A stretch of DNA of 41,721 nucleotides from a virus: the IMG/VR virus record IMGVR_UViG_3300015371_000084, positions 1 through 41,721 of that record. One strand, 5' to 3'. This document shows, one piece after another, positions 2,412-2,740 of the stretch (the stretch's first letter is position 1; each line of letters begins with the position of its first letter). The position numbers and the translations under genes were made by a program. The notes beneath the pieces are model-generated. The model made no database searches, had not been told where the DNA came from, and saw nothing but the letters and a program-made list of their open reading frames with translations.

Positions 2412-2480
2412 AAGCGGCTAAGTCGATTAGGTTGATTGCACTATTGTCGAAGTAGCATGTAGCCTAATCAGTGGCCGCTT
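2412..2480 (-). ncRNA. Y-RNA-like structured RNA, third unit, no tRNA module
   Basis: Read on the minus strand, 5' AAGCGGC pairs perfectly with 3' GCCGCTT (P1, 7 bp). After an internal loop (CACT opposite GACTTA), GATTAGG pairs with CCTAATC (P2, 7 bp). Then comes the conserved TACATGC, and a small hairpin TGCTA/TAGTGCA. The same order of elements, with different stem sequences that still pair, is seen in units 1 and 2, which indicates a selected RNA structure. The unit is 69 nt and lies 5' of the terminator at 2360-2381. Its first strand overlaps the last strand of the unit-2 outer stem, so both cannot form fully in one transcript. The Y-RNA assignment rests on structure plus the adjacent Ro60-like gene. 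Confidence 0.65.
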
Positions 2481-2649
2481 TCAGTGCCTGCCGCGCGGTG
2501 CCAAGTCGACGCGGAACTTACTTAGTGCCTGAATTTCAATCAGGTGCCTTAACCATTAGGCTATCACCCCAAACGGAATGAACAGGAATCGAACCTGTAA
2601 TCGCATGTAGCCGTATCGGTGGGCGCCGTGCAGCAGGCAGTGAAAGCGG
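2475..2649 (-). ncRNA. yrlA: YrlA-like Y RNA with circularly permuted tRNA-like module
   Basis: On the minus strand an outer stem of 17 positions with one mismatch (2649-2633 with 2491-2475) encloses the same core as units 1 and 3: P1 CGGCGCC/GGCACCG, P2 GATACGG/CCGCGTC, TACATGC and GTCGACTT. Inserted in the apical region is a tRNA mimic in permuted order. First comes a T arm, ACAGG-TTCGATT-CCTGT (2598-2582). Next is an acceptor-like stem TCATTCC/GGGGTGA closed by a GTTT loop (2581-2564). Then follow a D arm, GCC-TAATGGTTAA-GGC (2561-2546), and an anticodon arm, CCTGA-TTGAAAT-TCAGG (2544-2528). A tRNA module with a closed acceptor and its open side joined to the Ro60-binding stem is the known design of bacterial YrlA RNAs. 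G-U pairs in the acceptor occur only on this strand. The anticodon-like triplet is GAA (Phe type). It is not a translation tRNA as encoded. Confidence 0.75.
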
Positions 2650-2676
2650 TCGTGCGTTCCTTCCCTTCTAAAAATG

Positions 2677-2740
2677 ACTTGGCGAAGTCGATCTGCTTCA
2701 GTTGCTACCCTTAGCATGTATGCAAATCAGTGCGCCAAGT
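2677..2740 (-). ncRNA. Y-RNA-like structured RNA, first unit, no tRNA module
   Basis: On the minus strand 5' ACTTGGCG (2740-2733) pairs perfectly with 3' CGCCAAGT (2684-2677). The inner stem GATTTGC/GCAGATC has one G-U pair, and an apical hairpin TGCTA-AGGG-TAGCA is perfect. The internal loop CACT opposite GACTT and the TACATGC motif are shared with units 2 and 3, whereas stem sequences differ but still pair. Its 5' strand overlaps the last codons of the upstream small gene (stop at 2727), so it must be cut from, or start within, that mRNA. A T-run (TTTTT) follows the 3' strand. It is 64 nt, the size of a minimal Y RNA. Confidence 0.65.

Follow-up and report, generated by a model that had tools for sequence, protein, structure and literature searches.

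The stretch of DNA considered here (the window) comes from a virus and covers a 41.7-kb fragment, positions 1-41,721 of the record IMGVR_UViG_3300015371_000084; near-identical DNA was not found for it among GenBank phages. The window genes with recognisable families all lie on the minus strand, where three RNA units (A, B and C) stand in tandem upstream of the gene for a Ro-like protein of 506 amino acids (Table 1). This probable phage Y RNA array, together with the divergent Ro60 homologue, is a variant of the known Y RNA/Ro systems. An earlier note, made from the letters of the window, had placed three structured RNAs at 2412-2740 and suggested a Ro60-type partner. That placement fits, with the units on the minus strand. 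Two findings support the partner, namely the match to RO60 of the family profile of the adjacent gene and the confinement of a related core to the Ro-like locus in the three genomes that have matches.

Read 5' to 3', each unit consists of an outer stem (P1), the loop strand CAC, an inner stem (P2), one base, the motif UACAUGC, a tip, and the returning strands P2', ACUU and P1'. These strands are ACTTGGCG-CAC-TGATTTGC-A-TACATGC ... GCAGATCG-ACTT-CGCCAAGT in unit A, GCCTGCTGCACGGCGCC-CAC-CGATACGG-C-TACATGC ... CCGCGTCG-ACTT-GGCACCGCGCGGCAGGC in unit B, and AAGCGGC-CAC-TGATTAGG-C-TACATGC ... CCTAATCG-ACTTA-GCCGCTT in unit C. Read strand by strand, the units do share P1, the internal loop, P2 and TACATGC. 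The loop strands had been given as CAC(T/C) and GACTT; their CAC and ACTT portions stand, whereas the T/C and the G belong to the outermost P2 pair. Unit B is the least perfect of the three (its 17-bp P1 contains two mismatches and its P2 one A.C), and unit C carries one additional A in its 3' loop strand (ACUUA). Units A and C each fold alone into the core form, and unit B adds a multi-arm tip to the same stem; the folding z scores are -4.0, -4.7 and -4.9 for A, B and C, respectively. The minus strand of the window has TACATGC at four sites, three of which are within the units. In both this phage and a related one (contig L001), the stop codon of an upstream open frame falls in the CACUGA of the first unit (window 2727; L001 1673). 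Identification of the units as ordinary tRNA genes was dropped, as ARAGORN makes no calls, and chance hairpins were dropped because of the fold z scores, the shuffled inserts (0 of 165 giving a tRNA) and the covariation relative to shuffles.

Two viral contigs (L001/L002, also numbered L005/L006) encode a protein 52% identical to the window Ro-like protein, and a contig filed under Acidobacteriaceae (L008) encodes one that is 45% identical; all have RNA arrays upstream of the Ro-like gene. An alignment of eight cores (three from the window, four from L006 and one from L008, with the extra A of unit C removed) has 95% of its cells paired and 13 of its 15 pairs changed on both sides. Its covariation score is 0.957, compared with 0.199 +- 0.050 in shuffles, none of 500 shuffles reaches it, and sliding the pairing partner abolishes the signal. 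R2, a covariance model for which only the five non-window cores were used, returns unit A as its sole match in the whole 41.7-kb window (E 1.5e-8) and, with filters off, unit C in a 601-base stretch (E 1.3e-4). Unit B, whose insert is 85 nt long, is detected in neither search. The exact UACAUGC-core pattern, scanned over 2.9 million viral contigs that possibly do not include the window's own record, is present only in two contigs encoding the same protein. The observed three-unit covarying core is thereby confirmed as real. Selection for RNA structure, as the earlier note claimed, is borne out by covariation in phage and bacterial cores and by the held-out detection with R2; among homologues, the loops do not vary freely and the stems pair.

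By profile homology, the 506-amino-acid protein is a divergent Ro60 homologue that escapes Pfam TROVE. Pfam recognises VWA families only (VWA_CoxE, 1.9e-7), with vWA_Ro60 reaching up to 2.8e-4 in some members of the protein family, and PHROGs gives a weak match to the RNA-binding family PHROG_850. The Ro60 assignment is made because the family profile, compared with PDB chains, matches human RO60 (9nen, E 1.7e-7) over positions 167-415, a span that takes in the last of the helical part together with the VWA domain. The same profile matches a bacterial TROVE protein (9kop, 2e-7), there with an additional weak stretch at the N terminus, and has a weak match to Deinococcus Rsr (0.049). The single window sequence has zero matches in PDB, and a peptide-word search of genomes returned zero close relatives.

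Used as a query, the protein alignment leads to 41 genome loci, many from Planctomycetota and others from Chloroflexota, Cyanobacteria and Myxococcota. Near many of these family genes lie one to eight units with the layout P1, CCnAC, P2, N, UACAAAC, tip, P2', (G/A)ACU(U/C), P1'. In planctomycetes, chloroflexi and phages, the core precedes related Ro-like genes, most commonly in the UACAAAC form. When structure alone is scored, with no bonus for motifs, a score of 13 is reached by 34 of 104 UACA(UG/AA)C sites, compared with 1.3% of 520 controls (sites with shuffled 5' context), and a score of at least 14 by 23 sites, compared with none of the controls. Among 38 bacterial cores, 13 of 15 pairs are changed on both sides and none of 500 shuffles matches this, a figure flattered by rows picked partly by pairing and anchored on UACAAAC and ACU(U/C), which makes these letters invariant by design; the control with shuffled context is free of this fault. 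The covariance model R1, made from the bacterial UACAAAC cores, has significant genome-wide matches in three of eight genomes, and all six matches fall inside the Ro-like locus. Relatives show loop variants, including CAC to UAC or ACU, GACUU to GAUUU, and UACAUGC to UACAUG, UACAAAC or UACAUU. Because UACAUGC and other loop strands vary in this way, UACA and (G/A)ACU(U/C), which appear near-constant across the aligned cores, are the better contact candidates. The earlier proposal of the conserved loops as putative Ro-contact nucleotides is plausible. Loci L008-L048, chiefly from Planctomycetota, represent a Ro60-like family that escapes Pfam TROVE and has its own Y RNA core class, and a 131-kb viral contig (L007 3054-4350) has several units with UACAUU near a Ro-like gene, their pairing judged by eye only.

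The tip of unit B is a circularly permuted tRNA-Phe(GAA)-like module. Unrotated, unit B yields zero tRNA calls from ARAGORN, and after rotation of the insert, a computational test rather than a molecule observed in nature, tRNA-Phe(GAA) is called at 13 of 13 cut points (24-36) around the acceptor loop. Against the Rfam tRNA model, unit B scores 28.9 bits (cut-off 29). In related loci, 18 long inserts give a tRNA call once rotated, with varied anticodons, compared with 0 of 165 shuffled inserts, although some of the 18 calls (in L004) also appear unrotated.

Related loci combine the core with tRNAs in further ways. In L004 (LR756511.1 280762-292171, reverse complement, from the 595-kb uncultured phage LR756511), an inside-out core with a GAAA or similar loop cap lies within tRNA genes at 761-810, 961-1012, 2938-2990 and 3445-3496. 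Deletion of the insert of about 50 nt gives ARAGORN calls of tRNA Lys UUU, Arg UCG, Met CAU and one unclear, and deletion of the inside-out core at L008 4159-4203 gives tRNA-Met(CAU). The intact core-bearing genes in L004 and L008 yield zero calls; two L004 sites also yield zero after insert deletion. The same deletion at 300 random positions produced one tRNA call, beside a permuted unit. The Rfam tRNA model gives 50.6 bits for intact L004 735-861, where it places an insertion of 55 nt in the D loop. Complete, unpermuted tRNAs also occur at the handle tip, at L004 1070-1200 and 3727-3860 (Ser CGA and Thr UGU), L007 3500-3620 (Ile-like) and L008 4006-4125 (Thr-like). No description of a core within a tRNA gene was found in the literature searched, which did not extend to key Y RNA papers. 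Separately, L004 1625-1945 has a Y-type P1 around a structured insert, about 264 nt long, that matches nothing in Rfam, and in a Chloroflexi metagenome-assembled genome (L020 291-3917), several dozen tRNA genes are packed upstream of a Ro-like gene.

The closest known counterpart is YrlA of Salmonella, Deinococcus and Mycobacterium (PDB 6CU1), which shares with the window the basal stem, the asymmetric internal loop and the adjacent Ro homologue gene. The conserved basal stem and internal loop beside a Ro homologue gene that characterise Y RNAs are found here. The circularly permuted tRNA-like domain at the stem tip is found in unit B, where T arm, acceptor hairpin and D arm follow the YrlA order, and not in A or C. 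The window differs from YrlA in its core sequence, in the two units that lack a tRNA module, and in the GAA-bearing anticodon arm of unit B, which the Rfam YrlA consensus does not have. Rfam YrlA (RF02553) matches unit B at 24.5 bits (E 0.0074) and two L001 units at 44.9 and 37.3 bits (E 7.4e-9 and 1.1e-6). In its alignment to L001 1875-2008, UACA falls on YrlA CUAc and the AUUUU strand on YrlA AcUuG, a placement that rests on this one alignment and unit topology, the other L001 unit aligning in a shifted register. It offers a position for the canonical contact motif that the earlier note had left unmatched. Vertebrate Y RNA/Ro60 particles share the protein family, by the profile match to RO60, and their Ro site is likewise a helix, of 7 bp, between asymmetric bulges (PMC4726728); the window units have no Rfam Y RNA match and differ in sequence and tip. 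Ro/TROVE genes with abundant or tRNA-like RNAs close by, suspected to be Y RNAs, are known from mycobacteriophages, Listeria phage CKA15 (PMC12282133) and jumbo phages (PMC7824862). In contrast to those, the window RNAs are identified, share a covarying core and form a tandem array, and the window protein escapes Pfam TROVE.

Units A-C are very probably the Y RNAs of the phage-encoded Ro60 homologue, with the core as the Ro-binding handle. Given the fold, the covariation, the Ro60 homology, the synteny (an array directly upstream of the Ro-like gene in the window, L001/L002, L008, L004 and many bacterial loci) and the permuted tRNA tip, we infer that the units are expressed and bound, and that the tip has a partner and a purpose. 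The core is the likely handle because in bacterial Y RNAs Rsr binds the lower stem (PMC4726728), whereas PNPase binds the tRNA-like tip, which in the Deinococcus RYPER complex tethers this enzyme (PMC8394870); single nucleotides of the core are candidate contacts. P1, the CAC/ACUU internal loop, P2 and UACA would form a handle by which Ro grips each RNA on the outer surface of its ring. The region past UACA would be an exchangeable tip, either a short loop (A and C) or a permuted tRNA-Phe-like fold (B), that may gate entry to the Ro ring or recruit a partner. One protein and three RNAs would then give three ribonucleoproteins handling structured or damaged RNA during infection.

Several results weigh against this assignment. 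Pfam TROVE (PF05731) has no match above cut-off in the window protein, every Rfam YrlA match lies under the gathering score of 69, and PNPase and RtcB were not recognised among the open reading frames scanned in this 41.7-kb fragment. In addition, R1 finds none of units A-C in the window; the UACAUGC cores are therefore treated as a separate class, and sequence-level identity with the UACAAAC class is not claimed. The proposed link between the two classes is drawn from the homology of the proteins, the shared position and topology, and the UACA/ACUU strands.

The purpose of the tips is where the main rival arises. Ro-stabilised tRNA-like tips might act as anti-defence decoys that occupy host tRNA-cleaving nucleases or tRNA-damage sensors. 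This is unlikely overall, but it shares its anatomy with the Y RNA assignment and differs in purpose, so that the confidences placed in the two need not sum to one. A decoy is favoured by the full anticodon arm with GAA in unit B, which also makes the role more testable here, by the batteries of tips with differing anticodons at related loci (the 18 rotated calls against the shuffled inserts) and by the complete tRNAs mounted by phages L004 and L007. A competitive-inhibitor role has been suggested for Salmonella YrlA (PMC7790460), and phage tRNAs have been proposed to evade anticodon nucleases (PMC10264068). However, an anti-defence role is less obvious for bacterial contigs, which carry most of the homologues found; units A and C lack a tRNA tip, and no such nuclease is known here. 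A broader proposal, tentatively held and less likely than not, treats the core as a portable handle for Ro, which this Ro60 branch and its phages would graft onto many tRNAs or tRNA mimics. The topologies would differ, with the core carrying permuted tRNAs whose anticodon arms vary, joined to the acceptor end of complete tRNAs, or lying inside-out within tRNA genes under a GNRA-type cap. The outcome would be a set of Ro-bound tRNAs or decoys able to counter or sense tRNA damage.

Two further explanations are both very improbable. Unit B could be a permuted tRNA gene processed to a working tRNA-Phe, its Y core being a removable scaffold; the cloverleaf is complete and rotatable, with U33 and the GAA anticodon, and permuted tRNA genes are known from certain archaea and algae (PMC3218864, PMC3978253). 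Yet its acceptor is closed by a 4-nt loop, the stem contains G-U pairs, an encoded CCA is not visible, a clean anticodon arm is absent from most relatives, and units A and C have no tRNA part. The array might instead be a cis-acting leader, an attenuator or processing element of the Ro-like mRNA, and not a set of trans-acting RNAs, given its position on the same strand directly upstream of the gene and the terminator-like hairpin ahead of the gene. Against a leader, the distance and number of units vary (3 in the window, 4 in L001 and about 15 in L004), and a position downstream of the gene is seen for some units (L035 7825, L024 1750 and L017 1906).

Elsewhere in the window, a second VWA-type protein (DUF2201 metallopeptidase-like plus VWA) is encoded near an AAA ATPase gene (8920-10356 and 11365-12459), and two N6/N4 DNA methylase genes lie side by side at 15867-18238.

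Table 1. Positions of the RNA units, their parts and the Ro-like gene in the window
Feature	Position	Strand	Remarks
Unit A	2677..2740	minus	probable short Y RNA
Unit A parts	P1 2740-2733/2684-2677; CAC 2732-2730; P2 2729-2722/2696-2689; UACAUGC 2720-2714; loop 2713-2697; ACUU 2688-2685	minus	17-nt loop
Unit B	2486..2638	minus	probable YrlA-like Y RNA; insert is a permuted tRNA-like module
Unit B parts	P1 2638-2622/2502-2486; CAC 2621-2619; P2 2618-2611/2514-2507; UACAUGC 2609-2603; ACUU 2506-2503	minus	
Permuted tRNA-Phe(GAA)-like module of unit B	2528..2598	minus	ARAGORN on rotated insert
Module parts	T arm 2598-2582; acceptor hairpin 2580-2575/GUUU/2570-2565; D arm 2561-2546; anticodon arm 2544-2528; GAA 2537-2535	minus	
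Unit C	2412..2480	minus	probable short Y RNA
Unit C parts	P1 2480-2474/2418-2412; CAC 2473-2471; P2 2470-2463/2431-2424; UACAUGC 2461-2455; loop 2454-2432; ACUUA 2423-2419	minus	23-nt loop
Terminator-like hairpin	2364..2380	minus	GGCCCCCGTAAGGGGCT + TTTGTGTTTG; between RNA array and Ro-like gene; consensus match only
Divergent Ro60 homologue (by homology), 506 aa	800..2320	minus	HEAT-type N-terminal part by homology; VWA domain 301-409

Bacterial Y RNAs are little studied. This locus marks out a divergent Ro60 branch that escapes Pfam TROVE, with its own Y RNA core that escapes Rfam. Its putative Ro handle keeps UACA and ACUU near-constant between two helices that are free to vary, and the tips include plain loops, permuted tRNAs and entire tRNAs. 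Unit B illustrates how a handle of this kind could hold a tRNA look-alike on the Ro ring, and this small set of natural variants makes both Ro recognition and the purpose of tRNA mimicry directly testable.
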